A stretch of 37,607 bases of DNA, taken from NCBI GenBank assembly GCA_013791855.1, contig VMTA01000002.1, positions 1 through 37,607 on the forward strand, in the 5' to 3' direction. A program made the translations under genes and the position numbers. The notes beneath the pieces were generated by a model that was not told the DNA's origin, ran no database searches, and worked only from the letters and a program-made list of their open reading frames with translations. Shown in pieces: positions 6,624 through 37,607 of the stretch; within the stretch, counting starts at the first letter, position 1; each line of letters begins with the position of its first letter. Origin of the DNA: Sideroxydans sp. (lineage in GTDB: Bacteria > Pseudomonadota > Gammaproteobacteria > Burkholderiales > Gallionellaceae).

Positions 6624-7961
6624 TCAATCCTGCAGCCGAAGCAGCAGCTTCTCGTGTATCCCGCCGAACCCGCCGTTGCTCATCACCAGTATCTGGTCGC
6701 CTGACTTCGCCACGTTGGCGATGGCATCGATGAGTTCGTTGAGGTCGTCCTTCACCAGCGCCTTGTCGCCCAGCGGTGCCAGTGCACCGCGCGCATCCCA
6801 ACCCAGATTTCCCGCATAGCAGAAAGTCAGATCGGCATCTTTCAGACTGCCGGGCAGCGCATCTTTCATCACGCCCAGCTTCATGGTGTTGGAGCGCGGT
6901 TCCAGCACGGCGAGGATGCGTGCCGCCCCGACTTTGCGGCGCAGACCGGCCACCGTGGTATCGATGGCGGTGGGGTGATGTGCGAAGTCGTCATACACGG
7001 TGATGCCGTTGATCGTACCGCGCACTTCCATGCGGCGCTTCACGTTCTTGAATTCTCCCAAGGCCGCCAAGCCTTGCGCGACCGGCACACCGGCATGCCG
7101 CGCCGCGGCCAGCGCGGCCAGCGCGTTCATGCGGTTGTGCTCACCCATCAGCTCCCATTGCAGCTTGCCTTGCAGTTTGCCGTTGAACGACACCTGTTCT
7201 TGCTCGTCGATGTTCCATCCATCGTCGCTGCCGAACTTCTCCACCGGTGTCCAGCAGCCGCGCTGGATTACACGCTGCAGCGATTCCTCTCGGCCATTGC
7301 TCACCACCAGCCCGTTGCCCGGCACAGTGCGCACCAGATGATGGAACTGCGTTTCGATGGCATTCAGGTCGGCAAAGATGTCGGCGTGGTCGAACTCCAG
7401 ATTGTTCAATACTGCGGTGCGCGGACGGTAGTGCACGAACTTGGAGCGCTTGTCGAAGAAGGCGGTGTCGTATTCGTCCGCCTCGATCACGAAGAACGGC
7501 GACTCGGTGATGCGCGCCGAGATGCCGAAGTTCTGCGGCACGCCGCCGATCAGGAAGCCCGGATTCAGCCCCGCGTATTCCAGTATCCACGCCAGCATGG
7601 ACGTAGTGGTGGTCTTGCCGTGCGTGCCCGCCACACCCAGCACCCACTTGTCGCGCAGCAAAGTATCCGCCAGCCACTGCGGGCCGGAAACATAAGGCAG
7701 TCCGCGATTCAAGATCTCTTCCATCAGCGCATTGCCGCGCGACACCACGTTGCCGATGACGAACACGTCCGGCTTCAGCTCAAGCTGCTCGATGCCGAAA
7801 CCCTCGATCAGCTCGATGCCTTGTTCGATCAGTTGCGTACTCATCGGCGGATAGACGTTCGCATCGCAACCGGTGACGCGATAACCCGATTGCTTGGCGA
7901 TGGCGGCGATGCCGCCCATGAAGGTGCCGCAGATGCCGAGGATATGGATGTGTTTGCTCAT
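6624..7961 (-). CDS. mpl: UDP-N-acetylmuramate:L-alanyl-gamma-D-glutamyl-meso-diaminopimelate ligase
   Basis: Mur-ligase-family enzyme of 445 aa that attaches the recycled murein tripeptide to UDP-MurNAc. The N-terminal domain has HILGICGTFMGGIAAIAK (6-23), the ATP loop is GVAGTHGKTTTTS (109-121), and the middle domain has VIEADEYDTAFFDKRSKF and EFDHADIF; DDFAHHPTAI marks the C-terminal domain. GICGTFMG and the length fit Mpl rather than MurC. It starts 3 bp after the stop of the DUF486 gene, so the two are probably cotranscribed. With amgK and murU on the other strand, this window carries both the sugar and the peptide arms of peptidoglycan recycling. Confidence 0.93.
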   Translation of the reverse strand: MSKHIHILGICGTFMGGIAAIAKQSGYRVTGCDANVYPPMSTQLIEQGIELIEGFGIEQLELKPDVFVIGNVVSRGNALMEEILNRGLPYVSGPQWLADTLLRDKWVLGVAGTHGKTTTTSMLAWILEYAGLNPGFLIGGVPQNFGISARITESPFFVIEADEYDTAFFDKRSKFVHYRPRTAVLNNLEFDHADIFADLNAIETQFHHLVRTVPGNGLVVSNGREESLQRVIQRGCWTPVEKFGSDDGWNIDEQEQVSFNGKLQGKLQWELMGEHNRMNALAALAAARHAGVPVAQGLAALGEFKNVKRRMEVRGTINGITVYDDFAHHPTAIDTTVAGLRRKVGAARILAVLEPRSNTMKLGVMKDALPGSLKDADLTFCYAGNLGWDARGALAPLGDKALVKDDLNELIDAIANVAKSGDQILVMSNGGFGGIHEKLLLRLQD

Positions 7962-7964
7962 GGA

Positions 7965-8318
7965 TTACGTTCTGAAAATAAAATACACCGCGCCCACCAG
8001 GCACAGTCCCGCCCACAGATAGTCCAGCTTCAACGGCTGATTCATATACATCACCGCGAACGGCACGAAGATGGTCAGCGTGATGACTTCCTGCAATATC
8101 TTCAACTGACCCAGACTGAGCTGAGTGTAGCCGATACGGTTGGCCGGCACCTGCAGCAGGTATTCAAAAAGTGCGATGCCCCAACTCACCAACGCTGCCA
8201 CATACCAGGGCGAGGTCGCCATGTTCTTCAGATGGCCGTACCAGGCGAAGGTCATGAACAGGTTGGACACGGCGAGCATCATCGCCGTGATCAGCAACGG
8301 ATTGGATAGATGGTTCAT
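7965..8318 (-). CDS. DMT-superfamily small membrane protein (DUF486)
   Basis: Integral membrane protein of 117 aa with four predicted helices (about 7-27, 37-57, 73-93, 97-115); transport substrate unknown. The pattern NLFMTFAWYGHLKN, SWGIALFEYLLQVPANRIGY, LKILQEVITLTIFV and LWAGLCLVGAVYFIFR is typical of the DUF486 family. Its ATG at 8318 lies only 3 bp from the terminal inverted repeat of the element at 8322-8466. Reading out of that element, AGAGG (8329-8333 complement) sits ten bases before the ATG, so the element's own end appears to supply the ribosome binding site. mpl follows after 3 bp. Confidence 0.85.
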   Translation of the reverse strand: MNHLSNPLLITAMMLAVSNLFMTFAWYGHLKNMATSPWYVAALVSWGIALFEYLLQVPANRIGYTQLSLGQLKILQEVITLTIFVPFAVMYMNQPLKLDYLWAGLCLVGAVYFIFRT

Positions 8319-28737: not shown

Positions 28738-29583
28738 CTAAAGTGCGATACCCCTTTTCCATGTCTGGAAATGTTCCCGTTCCGTGTCGCCCATCCACGC
28801 ATTGACCTCCCACAGGTCCGCGACAGGCTGTTGCGTGAACGGCAGGGTGTGCAAATAACCGTCCGGTCCGAACTCGGGTGTCATGGTGGAATGCGTTCTG
28901 CCGCCAGCTTGCTGTGCAGCCCAGATCGCTTCCCAGTAGCGCTGGTGCGAAGCCAGTGCGCCTGCATATTCCGGCGCAGCCGGATGCGGCACTTGCGGCC
29001 CCTGGTCATAGCCGACGCGCGCGTGAATGTGTTGCGCATGCTTCGCCACTTCGCACACCGCTTCCCAGTCGTCATCCAGTTGCCGTTCCATCACCACCAC
29101 CCAGTGACTGAAGTCACAGGTGAGTTTTAATTCCGGCAAACGCTCCAGCACCGACAAGGTGATCCACGGATTGAACAGTGAGCGACTGCGATGCGTCTCG
29201 AAGCTGCAAGCGATACCCATGCGCGCCGCGATCTCCTGCGATTCACCGAAGAAACGCACACTCTGTTCCAGCGTCCAGGCATCGCAACCGCCGATCACCG
29301 TCACCCATTGCGGCTCCAGTGAGCGCCCCAGCTGCAACTGTCGTTCCACATCGGCGATGTGCTCCAGCACCGTGTCATGCCGGCGCGGCACATAGTTGCC
29401 ACCGGTCACGATCTCCTGGATGTAAGCGAGGTTGCGCGACTGCAACACTGCACGCAATTCATCGCGCGGCAGATTGTCGGCATTTCCTTCCAGACCGACG
29501 AAGCCTGCGTCGAGCGCTTGACGCGCCGACTCATCCAGCGCGCCCTGATGCCCCCACAGTGTCTTGAACAGTTGCAGTTCCAT
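28738..29583 (-). CDS. Xylose-isomerase-like TIM-barrel protein
   Basis: Cytoplasmic protein of 281 aa from the sugar-phosphate isomerase/epimerase (AP-endonuclease 2) fold. Likely metal ligands are E129 (SFETHRS), D157 and H160 (TCDFSHW), H187 (HIHARVG) and E237 (TPEFGP). The start at 29583 leaves a single base after the allophanate hydrolase stop; an upstream in-frame ATG at 29667 lies inside that gene. Members of this fold isomerise sugars, dehydrate inositols or open rings. Substrate and reaction are not known here, but one-base spacing ties it to allophanate hydrolase. Confidence 0.8.
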   Translation of the reverse strand: MELQLFKTLWGHQGALDESARQALDAGFVGLEGNADNLPRDELRAVLQSRNLAYIQEIVTGGNYVPRRHDTVLEHIADVERQLQLGRSLEPQWVTVIGGCDAWTLEQSVRFFGESQEIAARMGIACSFETHRSRSLFNPWITLSVLERLPELKLTCDFSHWVVVMERQLDDDWEAVCEVAKHAQHIHARVGYDQGPQVPHPAAPEYAGALASHQRYWEAIWAAQQAGGRTHSTMTPEFGPDGYLHTLPFTQQPVADLWEVNAWMGDTEREHFQTWKRGIAL

Positions 29584-29584
29584 C

Positions 29585-31342
29585 TCAGGCTCCGCGCTGT
29601 GCCATATAGGCGCGCCAACCGCCGAAGTGGGTGATGTCTTCCGCGTCCTGCACGGCATACTGCTCACAGATGAAACCTGTCACGGATGAACCGTCTGCCA
29701 GCATCAGCTTGCCGATGCCGAGCGGCGCGGGAATGCTCGCCACGAACGAACCGAACTCGCGGTCTGCCATCTCCCACACTTCCACTTCGATGGCACTGCC
29801 GCCCTGTGGTACGCGCACCATGCCAGGCCGGTGCGGCGGGCCGCCGGGCAAGGCATAGAATTTGTAATCCGGGCTGCTGTGCGTGCGTGCGACCAGATGT
29901 GCACCGCGACTGGTGAGCTGATGATTGAGTGGCAGACCTGCAAGGTGTGCGCCGCACACTGCGACACGCACGCGACCTGCTGCTACCGGCTGCGCATCGC
30001 TAGTCTCACGACGACTCAAACGTTCTGCCAGATGCAGTAACGGGATGTCCTGATGCGCAGGGGCTACCAAGGTGATACCGAACGGTAAACCGTCTTGCTG
30101 GAAACCGGCGGGTACGGCGACCGCTGCACAATCCAACAGGTTCATGAAGTTGGTGTAGTAACCCAGATTCGCATTCAGCTTGATCGGGTCGGCTTCCATC
30201 TCGTCTATGCGATAGATGGTGCCGGCGGTCGGCGTCAGCAGACAGTCGATCCTGCCCCAGGTCAGTGCGGCTTCTGCGCGCAAGGCTTCCAGTTTGTACA
30301 TGCCGTCAAAGGTGTCAGCAGCGGAGAACTTCTTTGCGCCTGCGATGATCTCGCGCACCACGGGATTAATTGCCTCGGCATGCGCATCGAAAAATTCACG
30401 TATGGCGGCATAGCGTTCCGCCACCCATGGTCCTTCGTACAACAACCGCGCCGATTTCAGGAAGGGCAGGAAATCGATCTCCACTTTCTGCCCGCCGATG
30501 GCCTCCATCGCCGCGACACTTTTCTGGAACAGTGCTGCCGCGTCCGGATTGCCGAAGAACTGCAATTGATCCTCACGCGGCACACCAAAGCGGAAGGATT
30601 CGGCACGGCCAAAATCAAAACCGTGCGTGAGCGCCTGACGCGAATAGGCATCCTGTTCGTCCAGCATCGTTGCGACCGACAACACGGTGGATGCATCTTC
30701 TGTGTTCAAAGCAAAGATGGACACGCAATCCAGCGAACGGCAGGCCGGTACCACACCGCGCGTGGAGAGCCAGCCGCGCGTGGGCTTCACGCCGACCAGA
30801 TCGTTGAATGCGGCCGGTACACGGCCCGAACCGGCGGTGTCCGTTCCCAGACTGAAACTCACCTGCCCCAAAGCGACAGCCACCGCCGAACCGGAACTGG
30901 AACCGCCTGAGATGTAATCGGGGTTGATGGCATTGCGACATGCGCCATGCGGTGAACGCGTGCCGTTCAGACCGGTGGCGAACTGGTCGAGATTGGTCTT
31001 GCCGATGGGAATGGCACCGGCGTTGATCAGCTCGCGCACCACCGTCGCATGACGTTGCGGATGATAGGCATACTCGTCACAGCCCGCCGTGGTCGGCGCA
31101 CCGGCCAGATCGATGTTGTCCTTGATCGCGAACGGGATGCCGTACAGCGGAAGTTCAGCAGGGTCTTTGTCCTGCAACGCAGTCACATACTTTTCGATCT
31201 CTTCCAGCGGCAGACGATGGATCCACACATGGTGCGGATCGTCACCGATGCGCGCGACGATGTCCTGCATCAGTTGCATCACTTGCAGTTCGCCGGCCAG
31301 ATAGCGGCGGCGCAGGGTGGCGATGTTCAGGTCGAGTCTCAT
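29585..31342 (-). CDS. atzF: Allophanate hydrolase
   Basis: Amidase-signature enzyme of 585 aa that converts allophanate to ammonia and carbon dioxide. The Ser-cisSer-Lys triad is K74 (AIKDNIDLAG), S148 (YISGGSSSGSA) and S172 (GTDTAGSGRVPA). A C-terminal domain of about 125 residues (about 460-585; GAHLAGLPLNHQLTSRGA, YKFYALPGG, EVWEMADREFGSFV, GFICEQYAV) is the allophanate-hydrolase-specific domain that helps break down the N-carboxycarbamate intermediate; it is complete here. The start is one base after the carboxylase stop. The product path supplies two ammonium ions per allophanate. Confidence 0.95.
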   Translation of the reverse strand: MRLDLNIATLRRRYLAGELQVMQLMQDIVARIGDDPHHVWIHRLPLEEIEKYVTALQDKDPAELPLYGIPFAIKDNIDLAGAPTTAGCDEYAYHPQRHATVVRELINAGAIPIGKTNLDQFATGLNGTRSPHGACRNAINPDYISGGSSSGSAVAVALGQVSFSLGTDTAGSGRVPAAFNDLVGVKPTRGWLSTRGVVPACRSLDCVSIFALNTEDASTVLSVATMLDEQDAYSRQALTHGFDFGRAESFRFGVPREDQLQFFGNPDAAALFQKSVAAMEAIGGQKVEIDFLPFLKSARLLYEGPWVAERYAAIREFFDAHAEAINPVVREIIAGAKKFSAADTFDGMYKLEALRAEAALTWGRIDCLLTPTAGTIYRIDEMEADPIKLNANLGYYTNFMNLLDCAAVAVPAGFQQDGLPFGITLVAPAHQDIPLLHLAERLSRRETSDAQPVAAGRVRVAVCGAHLAGLPLNHQLTSRGAHLVARTHSSPDYKFYALPGGPPHRPGMVRVPQGGSAIEVEVWEMADREFGSFVASIPAPLGIGKLMLADGSSVTGFICEQYAVQDAEDITHFGGWRAYMAQRGA

Positions 31343-31343
31343 C

Positions 31344-34300
31344 TCAGCCCTCCTCGCTTTGGATCACCAGCAGGTCTTGCCCGGCAGATACCTGACCGCC
31401 GGTGCGGCAACTCATCTGGATCACTTCGCCGTCACACGGCGCGACCACCGCGATCTCCATCTTCATCGACTCGATCACCACCAGCGTGTCGCCCGCCTTC
31501 ACCTTGCTGCCGACTTCCGCCGGGATCGCCCACACGTTGCCGGCCACATGCGCGGCGACGGCACGGCTGCCGGGTGGCAGGTCGAGTTCGCTGTCGGCCC
31601 CTGCCTCTGCCACATTGCTGTCGCTCGCATACTCGGCCTGACCGTTAGCCTTCCACATCTCGCGCTCGGCGGCGAACGCCGCACGCTGCGTGTCGCGGAA
31701 CGCGCTGATCTCTTTATCGTTGTCCTGCAGATACTGGTTGTAATCCTTCAGGCTGAAAGTGCTCTCTTCCACCTTGAGCTGGAAACGGCCCGCGATGAAA
31801 TCCTCGCGCATCTTGAGCAACTCCTGCTCCGACACCGGATAGAAACGGATCTGGTCGAAGAAGCGCAGCAGCCAGGGCTTGCCTTCCTTGAAGTCCCGCG
31901 TCTGCTTGTAGCGGTTCCACATCTGGATGGTGCGGCCAACGAACTGGTAACCGCCGGGGCCTTCCATCCCGTACACGCACATGTAAGCGCCGCCGATGCC
32001 GACTGCGTTCTCCGGCGTCCAGGTACGGGCCGGGTTGTATTTGGTGGTGACCAGACGGTGACGCGGATCGAGCGGTGTCGCCACCGGCGCGCCGAGATAC
32101 ACGTCGCCCAGACCCATCACCAGATAGCTGGCTTCGAACACGATGTTCTTCACAGTCTCGATGTCCTCGATACCGTTGATGCGGCGGATGAACTCGATGT
32201 TGCTCGGGCACCAAGGCGCATCCTTGCGCACCGACTGCATGTATTTCTCGATCGCCAGCTTGGTGGATGGATCGTCCCAGGAGAGCGGCAGATGCACGAT
32301 GCGGGTCGGCACGCGCATGTCCTCGATAGGTGGCAGTTTTTTCTCGGCCTTGATCAACATCTTCACCAGCGCATCGCGCGCCAGTTCGCGGCTGTCGAAA
32401 TGGATCTGCAAGGAACGGATGCCCGGTGTCAGATCTAGGATGCCGGGCAACTTGCCGTCGCTCACCGCGCCTTGCACCCATTCCATCAATGCATGCACGC
32501 GGAAACGCAGATTAAGATCGAGCACCAACGGGCCGTATTCGATGAGCAGATTGCGGTCGCCGGATTGGCGATACACCACTTGCACCTGCTCGCCCTTGGC
32601 TGGGACGGTGTGCACGATGGGGCTGCCCATCTCCTGCGCGGCGGGATAGGCCGCCTGCTTCTGCGGCAATCTCAATTGCGCGATGGTCGCGTCCTGCAAT
32701 TGCTCCAGATGGTTGGCTTGCTCCAAAGACATGAAGCGGAAACGCACCGTGTCGCCCGGACGCAGTTGACCCATCTTCCACAACTCGGCATGCACGATGG
32801 TGACCGGGCACACGAAGCCGCCCAAGCTGGGGCCGTCCGGCCCGAGGATGACCGGCATGTCACCGGTGAAATCCACCGCGCCGATGGCATAGGCGTTGTC
32901 GTGGATGTTGGACGGATGCAGACCCGCCTCGCCGCCATCCTGCCGCGCCCATTCCGGTTTAGGACCGATCAAGCGCACGCCGGTACGGCTGGAGTTGTAA
33001 TGCACTTCCCAGTCGGTGGCGAAGAAGGTCTCGATGTCAGCCGGGGTGAAGAAATCAGGCGCACCATGCGGCCCGTACAACACGCCGATCTCCCATTGCT
33101 TGCTGTAGGTCGGCAACAGCTCGGACGGTAGCGCACGCGCCACATACTTTTCAGTGCTCGCACCCAGATGCAGCACGTCACCGGTGCGTAAAGTGCGCCC
33201 GCCGTGACCGCCGAATTGACCCAGGGTGAAGGTTGATTTGCTGCCCAGATAGTCCGGCACATCGAAGCCACCCGCCACCGCCAGATAGCTGCGACAACCG
33301 CCGCCCTGCACCGCGCCCAGACGCAGCACGCTGCCGGCCTTTACTGCGTGGCTCTGCCAGAACGCCAGCGGCGCGCCGTCCAGTTCGGCTTTCATATCCG
33401 CACCAGCCAGCGCAATGACTGTGTCCTTGTTGAATCTCAGCGTCGGGCCGGATACGGTCAGTTCCAGTCCGGCTGCGTCGGCAGCGTTGCCCACCAGTTG
33501 ATTGCTCAAACGGAACGCCAGCGCATCCATCGGGCCCGAAGGCGGGACGCCGATGTTCCAGTAACCGAGACGGCCGGGATGGTCTTGTATGCTGCTCTGC
33601 ACACCGGGCTCCAGCACGTCGATGCTATGCGGCAGATAGTGGAAGCCGTTCAGGTAGCGCGTGGTCTGGCGACCTTCGGCGAACACCTGATCGGCCACGA
33701 TCTGGCGCAGGTAATCGAGATTGGTCTCGATGCCGTCCACGCGCGTCTCGGCCAGTACCGCACTCATCTTCTCCAGCGCGGATTCGCGGTTCATCGCCTT
33801 GACGATGATCTTGGCGATCATCGGGTCGTAGTAGGGCGGCACTTCGCTGCCGCGTTCCACCCAGGTCTCGTTGCGTGCATTGGCGGAGAACTCGACCCCG
33901 CTCAACACGCCGCTGGAAGGCTGGAAGTTCTTATTCGGGTCTTCCGCATACAGGCGCACCTGGATGGACGAACCCTTGGGCTTGATCTCGACACTGTCCA
34001 GTGCAGGCAGCTCGCCCGCGGCCTGCAACACCATCCACTCGACCAGATCGACGCCGGTCACTTCCTCGGTAACGCCGTGCTCCACCTGCAAGCGCGTGTT
34101 CACTTCGAGGAAGTAGAACTCGCCGCTCAAGGCATCGAACACGAACTCCACCGTACCTGCCGACTGGTAGCCCACAGCTTTGCCCAAACGCACGGCGGTA
34201 TCCAGCAGATGCTTTCTGACTTCGGGCGTGATGTTGGGTGCGGGGGTCTCTTCGATCACTTTCTGGTTACGGCGCTGCACCGAACAGTCGCGCTCACCCA

Positions 34301-34967
34301 GCGCGATCACGCCGCCTTTGCCGTCACCGAACAACTGCACTTCGATATGGCGTGCATGCTCGACGTATTTCTCCAGATAGATACCGGCGTCCTTGAAGTT
34401 GGCGCGTGCCAGACGTTCCACCGACTGAAAGGCCTCGCTCAGTTCGTCCGCGCTCCAGCACAGACGCATGCCGATGCCGCCGCCGCCCGCGGTACTCTTG
34501 ATCATCACCGGATAGCCGATGCGCGAAGCCTCGGCATGTGCATGGCCGACATCGCTCAGCAGTCCGCTGCCGGGCAGCAAGGGCACGCCGTTCTGTTCGG
34601 CGATCTCGCGTGCGGTGTGTTTCAGACCGAAACGGCGCATCTGGTCCGGTGTCGGGCCGATGAACGTTACGCCTGCTTGTGCGCACTGTTCGGCGAAACC
34701 CGCGTTCTCGGACAGGAAGCCGTAACCGGGATGGATGGCCTGCGCACCGGTCTTCAGCGCGACTTCGAGGATGTGTTCGCCGCGCAGATAACTGTCGGCC
34801 GCGGCCGCAGTACCGATGCATACAGCTTCGTCCGCCATCTGCACATGCAGTGAACGCGCATCGGCTTCCGAGTAAACCGCCACGGAACGGACACCCATCT
34901 TGTTCAGGGTGCGGATGATGCGGCAGGCGATCGCGCCGCGATTGGCTATCAAGACTTTATCGAACAT
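31344..34967 (-). CDS. Biotin-dependent guanidine (urea-type) carboxylase
   Basis: Enzyme of 1207 aa. The biotin carboxylase part (about 1-450) has [13 protein letters not shown], the ATP loop [25 protein letters not shown] and [17 protein letters not shown]. The KipA/KipI-like carboxyltransferase parts follow: [20 protein letters not shown], then [21 protein letters not shown] and [15 protein letters not shown]. The biotinyl domain carries K1169 in VIESMKMEI. The family was named urea carboxylase, but many members prefer guanidine and work with DUF1989 deiminase subunits. Both DUF1989 genes stand just upstream and a guanidine-II riboswitch precedes the start, so guanidine (to carboxyguanidine) is the likely substrate. 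The ATG at 34967 is preceded by AGGTGAG. Urea may still be a side substrate. Confidence 0.93.
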
Positions 34968-34972
34968 GGTTA

Positions 34973-35029
34973 CTCACCTGAGTCGCAGGTCGTCCTGCGT
35001 GTTGGTCAGGCATCCGGTCGTCCGGATGC
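34973..35029 (-). promoter_or_regulatory. Guanidine-II (mini-ykkC) riboswitch
   Basis: On the minus strand two hairpins with identical ACGA loops closed by G-G/C-C pairs stand in a row. P1 is GCATCCGG-ACGA-CCGGATGC (35029-35010, 8 bp) and P2 is CGCAGG-ACGA-CCTGCG (34999-34984, 6 bp), with a 10-base linker. Twin hairpins with ACGR loops are the diagnostic form of guanidine-II aptamers. The Shine-Dalgarno region CAGGTGAG (34980-34973) lies next to P2. Its CAGGT can pair with ACCTG of the P2 3' arm (34990-34986), so guanidine-stabilised P2 would free the ribosome site: a translational ON switch. It sits inside the operon, between the DUF1989 gene and the carboxylase. Confidence 0.9.
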
Positions 35030-35038
35030 GCGGATTCA

Positions 35039-35686
35039 TCAAGCAGCGGCGTCCCAGATCAGCAGCTGCACCGGCGTCGGGTTGTAGGCGTTGCACGGGT
35101 TGTTCAGTTGCGGGCAGTTGGAGATCAGCACGAACACATTCATCTCGGCGCGCATCTCGACATACTTGCCGGCTGCGGAGATGCCGTCGGCGAAGGTCAG
35201 CTCGCCCTGCGGTGTCACCGGCACGTTCATGAAGAAATTCACGTTGGCGGTGAGGTCGCGCTTGTCCATGCCGCAATCGCAATGGCCCAGCGCGTGCAGG
35301 AAACTGTCGCGGCAGCTGTGCATGTATTTCTTGTCGATGGCGTAACGCACCGAGTTGCTCTCGGCCGCGCAGGCACCACCCAGCGTGTCGTGACGACCAC
35401 AGGTGTCGGCGACGATGGTCATCAGCACATTGCCTTCGGTGGACATCAGCTTGGTGCCGGCAGTGAGATAGATGTTGCCCTGCTCGCGGATGGTGTCCAC
35501 TGCGCTGTAGCGCTCTTCCGGTTCGCGTGCGCTATAGAACAGGGTATCCACAGCCTGATTACCTTCCAGGTCGAGGATGCGGAACACCTGTCCGCGCTTC
35601 ACTTCATGCAGCCAGGATTCACCGGCGGGCAGCACCAGCTCATAGCTGGCCTGTTGCGGGTTCAATTTACTTTCAACGATGCTCAT
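35039..35686 (-). CDS. DUF1989 protein, carboxyguanidine deiminase subunit (UAAP2-type)
   Basis: Protein of 215 aa. Pairs of DUF1989 proteins, formerly urea amidolyase-associated proteins, form carboxyguanidine deiminase (CgdAB), which turns carboxyguanidine into allophanate. The body has [53 protein letters not shown] and [17 protein letters not shown]96, H99, C106 and C191 are candidate metal ligands. The start at 35686 has AGGAG five bases upstream; an ATG at 35704 overlaps the previous gene. The gap to the carboxylase (71 bp) is the only sizeable one in this part of the operon and holds the riboswitch. Confidence 0.88.
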
Positions 35687-35700
35687 GTTCTCTCCTGCGC

Positions 35701-36429
35701 TCAACGGAACAACAGTTCGGTGTTATAGAAGCCGCGCACGTTCTCGGGACGGAAGTTGCGGCACAGGTCTTGTTCGTCCGGCGTGCCGCAGCGCCATGCC
35801 TGCAGCAACACCGGCTTGGGGGCGTACTCGGGGTTCGGGTCGAGCGGATGTTGGGTCGCGCTCAGCACCACCAGCACGTCCATCTCGAAACGCAACTCAA
35901 CGTAGCCGCCCGCTGGGGAGTGGTTCGCTGCGTAGTGCATGGCACCCGCATCGTCGGCGCTCACCTTGCTGAAGAAATTCGCGTTGGGCACGATGTCGCG
36001 CTTGCCCAATCCCCACTTGCCCAGCTCGATCAGCATGCTGTCGCGCGCATTGCGATGCATGTCGTTGCGCGCCTGCTGGTAAGTAGCCTTGCCATATTTC
36101 TTCTCCACCAGCGCCGCATTGCTCATGCCGCTGATGGTGTCGTGCCAGCCCACGCTGTCGCCGATGACCGAAGCCAGCACGCGCCCCATGTCGGAATACA
36201 GCACGAAGCCGGTGGTGAGGTGCGCGGTGTGCTGCGCCTTCAGCGTGTCCGGCATGTTGTAGCGTTCCAGTTTCTCGTCCTTGTTGTAGAACAGTGCGCT
36301 CAGGTTGGCACCGCCTTCCACGTCGGTGAGGCGCAGCGCGGTGCCGCGCTTCATCACGAAGGACCAATGCGCACCGCCGGGAAGCGTCTCTTCCCACAGC
36401 AGATTGGTTTTGGATAAGGGTTCGGTCAT
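35701..36429 (-). CDS. DUF1989 protein, carboxyguanidine deiminase subunit (UAAP1-type)
   Basis: Protein of 242 aa, second member of the DUF1989 pair. It shares [36 protein letters not shown] and [14 protein letters not shown] with the other subunit. At the positions where the partner has C96, C106 and C191 it has no cysteine (H96 is kept), so the metal site is probably complete in only one subunit. The start at 36429 has an AGGA about ten bases upstream and leaves 11 bp to the ATPase stop; the alternative at 36444 overlaps the ATPase gene. It is longer at the C-terminus, ending FYNTELLFR. Confidence 0.88.
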
Positions 36430-36440
36430 TTCTTCATTCC

Positions 36441-37292
36441 TCATTGCATATCGTTCTGTTGTGCGGCCTGCTGGGTCATGCGTTCCAGCAGTTCGAGGTC
36501 GGTGCGCATGCCGGCGGTCTCGCGGATGCGGGTCAGAATGGCTTTCTTCTGCTGCAGGAAGCCGGGCGCCAGCTTCATGTCCTGGTCGCGCTGCTCGGGC
36601 AGGTCGACCGTGTAGATGCTGTCGACACGGCCCGGACGCGGCGCCATCACCACCACACGCTGCCCCAGATAGATAGCTTCTTCCACGTCATGGGTGACGA
36701 ACACGATGGTGGTCTTCTCCAGCTTGGAGACGTGCAGGATCATGTCGTGCATCACTTCACGCGTCTGCGCGTCGAGTGCACCGAACGGCTCGTCCATCAA
36801 CAGGATCTGCGGACGCGGCAACAGGGCACGCGCGATGGCGACGCGCTGCTGCATGCCGCCCGAGAGTTGGTTGGGATAGGCGTCGCGCACATGATTCAGG
36901 CCCATCAGATTGATCAGTGCATCGGCACGCCCAGAGGCGGCTTCGACATCCGATGAAGTGAGGTTCTCGCGCCCGGCACGCAGCTGTCGGCTGAACTTGA
37001 TGTTCTCGGTCACGGTCAGCCACGGGTACAGGCTGTAGTGCTGGAACACCATGGCACGGTCCACGCCGGGTCCGTTGATGTCCACGCCATCCACCTTGAT
37101 GCTGCCGGAAGACAAGGTCTCCAGTCCGCCGATGCAGCGCAATAGCGTGGACTTGCCGCAGCCCGATGCGCCGACGAAGGTGACGAACTCGTTGCTGCCG
37201 ATCTGCAGGTTCACATCCTGCAGCGCGACGATGCCGCGTTCGCCTTCGCCGAAGGTCTTGTGTGCCGCTTGTATGCTGATCTTGGTCGTCAT
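36441..37292 (-). CDS. ABC transporter ATPase (nitrate/sulfonate/taurine type)
   Basis: Cytoplasmic ATPase of 283 aa that drives import with the neighbouring permease. Walker A is VGASGCGKSTLL, the Q-loop is MVFQHYSLYPWLTV, the ABC signature is LSGGMQQRVAIARALL, Walker B is ILLMDEPFGALD and the H-loop is VFVTHDVEEA. A C-terminal extension of about 50 residues (DQDMKLAPGFLQQKKAIL and on) is longer than in many SsuB/TauB proteins. The start at 37292 is 8 bp after the permease stop with AAGG upstream; a longer reading to 37502 lies inside the permease. It belongs with the binding protein at 27559-28539 or one outside the window. Confidence 0.93.
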   Translation of the reverse strand: MTTKISIQAAHKTFGEGERGIVALQDVNLQIGSNEFVTFVGASGCGKSTLLRCIGGLETLSSGSIKVDGVDINGPGVDRAMVFQHYSLYPWLTVTENIKFSRQLRAGRENLTSSDVEAASGRADALINLMGLNHVRDAYPNQLSGGMQQRVAIARALLPRPQILLMDEPFGALDAQTREVMHDMILHVSKLEKTTIVFVTHDVEEAIYLGQRVVVMAPRPGRVDSIYTVDLPEQRDQDMKLAPGFLQQKKAILTRIRETAGMRTDLELLERMTQQAAQQNDMQ

Positions 37293-37300
37293 CGTTCGCC

Positions 37301-37607
37301 TTATTTCTTGTACAGCCAGGGGAAGTTCCTGCGGTGCAGCCAACGGAACAACTGGTCGATGGTCAGGCCGATCAGGCCGATCAAAATGATGCCGGCGAAG
37401 ATCTTGTCGGTCTGCATGAAGCGCTGCGCGCGCAGGATGGAATAGCCGAGGCCGGAGTTCGCGGCGACCAATTCGGCCACCACCAGATAGGTCCACGCCC
37501 AACCCATGGTCACGCGCAAAGTGTCGAGCAGGGCGGGCTTGGCCGACGGTACGATCACCAGCTTCACGATCTCGGCGCGGCTCGCACCCATGGTCTGCGC
37601 GGCTTCG
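37301..37607 (-). CDS. ABC transporter permease, C-terminal part, cut by window edge
   Basis: The last 102 residues of a BPD-type inner-membrane permease. The reading continues upstream to the right edge as EAAQTMGASRAEIVKLVIVP, the cytoplasmic EAA loop that contacts the ATPase. Three hydrophobic segments follow (TLRVTMGWAWTYLVVAELVA, GIILIGLIGLTI and surrounding). The family is SsuC/TauC/NrtB. The start, the earlier helices and any promoter of the operon lie outside the window. Confidence 0.92.
   Translation of the reverse strand, partial: EAAQTMGASRAEIVKLVIVPSAKPALLDTLRVTMGWAWTYLVVAELVAANSGLGYSILRAQRFMQTDKIFAGIILIGLIGLTIDQLFRWLHRRNFPWLYKK

Follow-up and report, generated by a model that had tools for sequence, protein, structure and literature searches.

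In a guanidine-assimilation operon of Sideroxydans sp., the 71 bases that separate cgdB from gca contain a guanidine-II (mini-ykkC) riboswitch aptamer (34985..35029, minus strand). With a probability of roughly 90%, in our estimate, this element controls the translation of gca as the inner layer of the operon, the outer one being most likely formed by a guanidine-I riboswitch. The presence of the guanidine-II element is confirmed: it matches Rfam family RF01068 with 39.1 bits (GA 32; E = 1.6e-4 over the window, which denotes the complete analysed stretch of 37,607 nucleotides), and no other Rfam family exceeds its cut-off within the window. The next-best guanidine-II match in the same genome reaches 14.5 bits, and only the 39.1-bit one lies above the cut-off. 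The original prediction, which had named the mini-ykkC class from the hairpins, thus passes the check with the covariance model.

Architecture of the aptamer

Read on the minus strand, the gap extends from the cgdB stop codon (last base 35039) to the gca ATG (34967). The P1 hairpin (35010..35029) comprises an 8-bp stem (35029-35022 with 35017-35010) and an ACGA loop (35021-35018), followed by a 10-base linker (35000..35009) and the P2 hairpin (34984..34999), which is composed of a 6-bp stem (34999-34994 with 34989-34984) and a second ACGA loop (34993-34990). The end of P2 lies 16 bases ahead of the gca ATG; the Shine-Dalgarno region, CAGGTGA (34974..34980), inferred from its position, precedes the ATG by 6 bases. 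Gap, stems, loops and linker agree in every measured detail with those originally described. Both loops are closed by G-C pairs and, together with the stem lengths, fit the form of the class, in which the loops read ACGR. The predicted pairing probabilities amount to 0.99–1.0 for P1 and 0.82–0.99 for P2.

Both hairpins are also supported by covariation within the family, in a test of related rows that leans towards the structure because these rows were found using the covariance model. Among 20 family sequences, 17 of them distinct, the P1 and P2 stems are paired in 97.2% of the cells versus 87.5% in shuffles, and in the 17 distinct sequences both partners have changed at 7 of 13 stem pairs. 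Any of the five measures was reached by none of 500 shuffles, and sliding the stem partners lowered the pairing down to 28–40%. A comparison of the leader DNA with a plasmid collection gave no match.

Operon context and identity of the carboxylase

The regulated gene gca (31344..34967, minus strand) matches TIGR02712 with 1945 bits (cut-off 1304), a family named urea carboxylase in NCBIfam. Its product is nevertheless assigned as a guanidine carboxylase because of Asp699, which aligns with Asn1330 of the Kluyveromyces lactis urea amidolyase (chain 5i8i_A) and is invariant in a six-member alignment; a true urea carboxylase is ruled out by this guanidine-type aspartate in place of the urea-type asparagine. 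An aspartate at the Asn1330 position marks guanidine carboxylases according to two reports (PMC12186494, PMC11410670). On the same strand, gca is preceded by cgdB (35039..35704; UAAP2, TIGR03424, 342 bits, cut-off 285) and cgdA (35701..36444; UAAP1, TIGR03425, 361 bits, cut-off 206), both encoding carboxyguanidine deiminase subunits, and further upstream by the genes for the ATPase of an ABC transporter (36441..37277), a putative guanidine importer whose matches to the listed ABC ATPase families stay below the curated cut-offs, and for an ABC permease (37301..37607), which is truncated where the contig ends. Outside the window, ahead of the permease gene, a guanidine-I leader is to be expected. 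Downstream of gca follows an allophanate hydrolase gene of the atzF type (29585..31342, minus strand; TIGR02713, 817 bits, cut-off 511). The gene context, of which the original prediction had named transporter, deiminase and carboxylase, is supported for the ABC transporter, the carboxyguanidine deiminase, the guanidine carboxylase and the allophanate hydrolase.

A gene for a xylose-isomerase-like TIM-barrel protein (28738-29667, minus strand) is located between the allophanate hydrolase and substrate-binding protein genes of the guanidine operon; its coding start is uncertain, and in its longest form it reaches into the gene for the allophanate hydrolase. The protein scores 24.4 bits against PF01261, below the cut-off of 31.1, and has no NCBIfam match. 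Homologues are encoded at the same place in five Gallionellaceae loci (L087-L090, L118), whereas in L120, L132, L146 and L160 they lie upstream and on the opposite strand; in total they occur in 9 of the best 80 gca loci (see below), all of which belong to the 50 loci with guanidine-II. To our knowledge, no role of this protein in guanidine metabolism has been described.

Distribution of the intergenic element

The placement of the element was followed in two surveys, one covering 158 genomes of the Gallionellaceae (94 of them at least 90% complete) and the other, based on named records, the best 80 gca loci of 535 confirmed relatives. The surveys are not independent since at least six genomes are shared, with identical coordinates and leaders (L087/G125, L088/G079, L089/G117, L090/G144, L110/G037 and L118/G019). 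Searches spanning more than 40 genomes used stricter filters, by which weak matches were lost. In the best 80 loci guanidine-II was sought both with Rfam (E <= 0.05 per genome) and with a two-hairpin pattern, and the Rfam matches were assigned to gca from their coordinates and strand, contig numbers not being comparable.

A guanidine-II match (E <= 0.001) is present in 26 of the 158 family genomes, in 21 of them above the cut-off, and 20 of the 26 matches, including that of the window's genome, lie between cgdB and gca. For the other six (L003, L004, L006, L009, L010, L019), neither gca nor cgdB is matched in the surroundings; in L003, L009, L010 and L019 the element stands ahead of a start resembling that of an SMR exporter, which was recognised by eye. 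Viewed from the carboxylase, gca is found in 24 of the 158 genomes, and 23 of these provide a readable cgdB-gca gap, that of G062 being cut by the contig. Twenty readable gaps contain a listed match and a further one (G146) an unlisted copy recognised by eye, which gives 21 of 23. The remaining two (G115 and G116) have the same genes and guanidine-I, no guanidine-II, and a cgdB stop that overlaps the gca start (TGATG; L056, L057). Loss of the ACGA loops from relatives that keep the operon, which the original prediction regarded as an argument against itself, is thus seen in 2 of the 23 family genomes with a readable gap, that of the window included in the 23, without overturning the assignment of the element to the guanidine-II family.

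The best 80 loci offer a similar picture. An Rfam match lies within 200 bases before gca in 39 of them, and either such a match or two ACGN hairpins in 50, of which 49 have cgdB upstream; the fiftieth, L124, has 103 bases of upstream sequence before its contig ends. The position between deiminase and carboxylase genes, originally judged unusual, is consequently the majority site, both among the family matches and in the best 80 gca loci, and has been published.

The gca operons of Nitrosomonas, Nitrosospira and Nitrosovibrio (for example L115-L117, L122, L123, L125-L127, L130, L131, L138-L140 and L164) carry guanidine-I but lack guanidine-II hairpins in the 200 bases that precede gca; some of these genomes (L122, L130 and L131) contain guanidine-II elsewhere. 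Whether the operon has one switch or two thus tends to follow the lineage.

The probable guanidine-I partner

In the window's genome, a guanidine-I aptamer was detected on another contig (C36:90275-90387; 83.3 bits, cut-off 63), 1.1 kb from the contig end and followed by a permease gene and the start of an ATPase gene. Within the end of this contig (L029 5276-6499), the last 543 bases are 92% identical to the end of the window (37065-37607), at the junction of the permease and ATPase genes. A predicted stem of 12–13 bp and a U-rich run overlap the end of the aptamer (-33.2 kcal/mol, z -5.0), and by folding have the form of a transcription-terminating platform. Within the family, guanidine-I is found in 20 of the 158 genomes, all of them among the 24 with gca. 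In 19 of the 20 it shares contig and strand with gca and precedes it by 1.6–6.6 kb; the one exception is the genome of the window, owing to its contig breaks. Using a model built from the Gallionellaceae copies, guanidine-I was found upstream of gca on the same strand in 52 of the best 80 loci, and both classes in 25.

By analogy with these relatives, guanidine-I most likely leads the operon of the window. The copy on C36 would represent a strain variant within the assembly or else an additional copy of the transporter; a second complete operon was also considered and rejected, as the genome contains a single gca. The original prediction had suggested to look for a further guanidine-II copy ahead of the permease gene. 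No second guanidine-II above the cut-off is present in the window's genome, and the leader at that place, judged from C36 and the relatives, appears to be guanidine-I.

Proposed mechanism of control

We propose that the front guanidine-I riboswitch would let transcription pass a terminator when guanidine is present, and that in the resulting transcript the binding of guanidinium would cause the ACGA loops of P1 and P2 to kiss, which would free the gca Shine-Dalgarno region and raise gca translation. The allophanate hydrolase would probably be controlled via gca by the same guanidine-II element. Ligand binding, the ON direction and the two-layer logic are those parts of the model which we infer. 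Translational ON control is likely by class. In P. aeruginosa, guanidine-II raises ribosome loading in a guanidine-dependent manner (PMC9561414). A separate tuning of gca, as originally suggested, appears plausible and has already been proposed in print.

The manner in which the ribosome site would be masked without ligand was considered in two versions. The original prediction held that the mechanism can be read directly, in that ACCTG of the 3' arm of P2 (34990-34986) pairs with CAGGT of the Shine-Dalgarno (34980-34976) in the ligand-free state, and that guanidine lets P2 form and thereby frees the ribosome site. The two segments are indeed geometrically pairable across 5 bases, 14 of the 21 family leaders have a 5-bp version, and for G. 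violaceus a stem that overlaps both P2 and the ribosome site has been suggested (PMC5486947). However, when this helix is forced at 37 C in three sequence contexts, the energy rises from -31.8 to -26.0, -51.2 to -46.7 and -86.5 to -80.4 kcal/mol, which corresponds to costs of 5.8, 4.5 and 6.1 kcal/mol relative to the best fold (4.7 kcal/mol at 25 C), and its pairing probability is 0.00. Moreover, 4–30% of the spacer shuffles do equally well in the 14 leaders with the 5-bp helix and 33–100% in the other seven, which reach 2–4 bp. The mean length of the best helix in the family is 4.48 bp compared to 3.67 bp for spacer shuffles, which speaks for the original prediction, although these leaders are closely related; in the survey of the best 80 loci the corresponding values are 3.13 and 3.00 bp (50 leaders tried, 48 parsed, of which six repeat family leaders; L152 and L157 have no parsed P2). 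The helix thus exists on paper, the mechanism is not directly readable from it, and we regard this switch as improbable.

In the predicted ligand-free fold at 37 C, P2 stays intact and CUGACC of the linker (35009-35004) pairs around it with GGUGAG (34978-34973) of the Shine-Dalgarno region. For the leader of the window, this linker helix is the better masking candidate, and the P2-arm helix is not favoured. The predicted pairing is short, comprising 2+3 bp with a G.G mismatch, and its core GGU is unpaired to about one third at 37 C; in the best fold at 25 C it is replaced by a local ACUC:GAGU hairpin over the Shine-Dalgarno. For the window leader, 10% of shuffled linkers pair equally well. The mean linker-spacer energy in the 21 family leaders is -2.86 versus -3.20 kcal/mol for shuffled linkers (p < 0.05 in none), and in 39 leaders parsed out of 42 others -3.01 versus -2.95 kcal/mol (p < 0.05 in one); six repeats of family leaders and two leaders with inserts had been taken out before arriving at these 42, of which L152, L157 and L162 were unparsed. 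The linker pairing was consequently rejected as a conserved mechanism, being generally no better than that of shuffled linkers. For comparison, an anti-Shine-Dalgarno has been proposed in the linker of the E. coli element (PMC9094411) and, for P. aeruginosa, in a putative P0 helix, where the exchange of four cytosines leaves the switch locked ON (PMC9561414), whereas the linker partner in the window is weak and not conserved.

The lack of a conserved anti-Shine-Dalgarno partner gives room to a different route, in which the guanidine-binding element would act mainly via mRNA stability or via Rho-dependent termination inside gca, coupled to translation. The authors of the V. boliviensis study likewise regard a coupling of translational riboswitches to the mRNA level as possible (PMC12508155). 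Against this, the guanidine-II class is reported as translational (PMC12186494), and a terminator-pattern scan of 34900-36450 found no site in the gap, a result that speaks only against an intrinsic terminator there. Altogether we concede this route a small chance. A scan of the same region for promoters found none resembling sigma-70, which says little because 0.5 are expected in shuffles.

The close proximity of P1 to the preceding gene raises a further scenario. The distance from the cgdB stop to P1 is 9 bases in the window, 5–16 bases in 15 of 19 well-parsed family leaders (38, 39, 157 and 259 bases in the other four), and at most 15 bases in 29 of the 48 leaders parsed in the best-80 survey; L024 and L162 (unparsed), L124 (no cgdB) and L020 (misparsed) were dropped from these counts. 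A ribosome finishing cgdB might cover and melt the start of P1 and thereby gate the internal riboswitch. Guanidine sensing for gca would then be confined to the intervals separating one round of cgdB translation from the next, or each round would reset it, and the second switch would form an AND of guanidine and deiminase translation. In G115 and G116 the absence of guanidine-II coincides with the overlap of the cgdB stop and the gca start, and direct translational coupling likely replaces the riboswitch there. Plain packing of the genes accounts for this spacing just as well, and we consider such gating unlikely.

That the element is a degenerate or non-functional relic, as the two relatives without guanidine-II might suggest, is very improbable in view of intact loops and closing pairs, a score above the cut-off, covarying stems and its presence in 21 of the 23 family gaps that are readable, one copy being recognised by eye only.

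Relation to known systems

The preferred reading, guanidine-II as a translational inner layer for gca, places the window beside several described systems. The guanidine-II elements of SMR exporters, such as E. coli SugE and a P. aeruginosa transporter, likewise consist of two ACGR hairpins before the ribosome site of a guanidine gene, and lead single-gene transcripts. The closest counterpart is the operon of Vreelandella boliviensis (PMC12508155), in which guanidine-I stands at the front and guanidine-II in the cgdB-gca gap; RNA class, both flanking genes and the series of importer, deiminase, carboxylase and allophanate hydrolase are the same as here. Its guanidine-I element binds guanidine with an apparent KD of 44 uM and did not bind methylguanidine in the tested range, while in-line probing of its guanidine-II element yielded apparent KD values of 93 uM for guanidine and 83 uM for methylguanidine, and the operon is induced in the proteome (PMC12508155). 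The operons differ in gene content: according to the same paper, mgdH and mgdL are inserted between gca and atzF in V. boliviensis, while in the window the allophanate hydrolase gene directly follows gca, and is itself followed by the xylose-isomerase-like and the substrate-binding protein genes, unlike in V. boliviensis.

In Raoultella terrigena, Erwinia rhapontici and Klebsiella michiganensis, guanidine-I precedes importer and deiminase genes and guanidine-II those of carboxylase and allophanate hydrolase, as in the window; these are enterobacteria, and the second gene group is given as immediately downstream of the first in a review (PMC12186494). Placement and two-layer idea are therefore already in print, in the V. 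boliviensis paper and this enterobacterial review.

The element is accordingly a real, well-conserved and ordinary guanidine-II switch with a common and published internal position, and the window instance alone leaves the known picture unchanged. In the open-licence literature, we found no paper joining a guanidine-II riboswitch with Gallionella or Sideroxydans, and its occurrence in the Gallionellaceae may therefore be undescribed. The wider result is that this family, relatives of iron oxidisers, would be added to those bacteria whose guanidine-nitrogen operon combines two classes of guanidine riboswitch, the first acting on transcription and the second, internal to the operon, serving the carboxylase. 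The surveyed operons with, without, or with a split-open guanidine-II element provide natural comparisons for the purpose of the second switch.

Variant guanidine-II forms

The split-open form was observed in L108 and L109 (records titled Hydrogenophilales and Thiobacillus denitrificans, respectively; each at ~7801-8000), where guanidine-II before gca is interrupted by an insert. P1 (ACGG loop, 9 bp) is located about 190 bases and P2 (ACGA loop, 5–6 bp) 19 bases before gca, and the Rfam guanidine-II search missed both copies. The insert of about 145 bases has terminal inverted repeats, folds largely into a single long stem and gives a minus-strand match to Rfam sX9 with 45 bits (cut-off 44); two diverged copies of it (76 and 79%) are present at other sites of the L109 genome. 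P1 and P2 might be held near each other by the inserted stem, and the split element offers a natural test of the linker requirements.

Two further loci at contig edges (L098, L141) contain the P2 side only. Finally, one loop reads ACGC or ACGT, not ACGR, before gca in L091, L092, L095-L097, L099, L101, L103-L107, L110, L128, L135 and L163, and also in the family loci L025 and L027, the latter being the same locus as L110. Many of these records are titled Thiobacillus or Hydrogenophilales, and the last base of the loop lies outside the consensus of the class.
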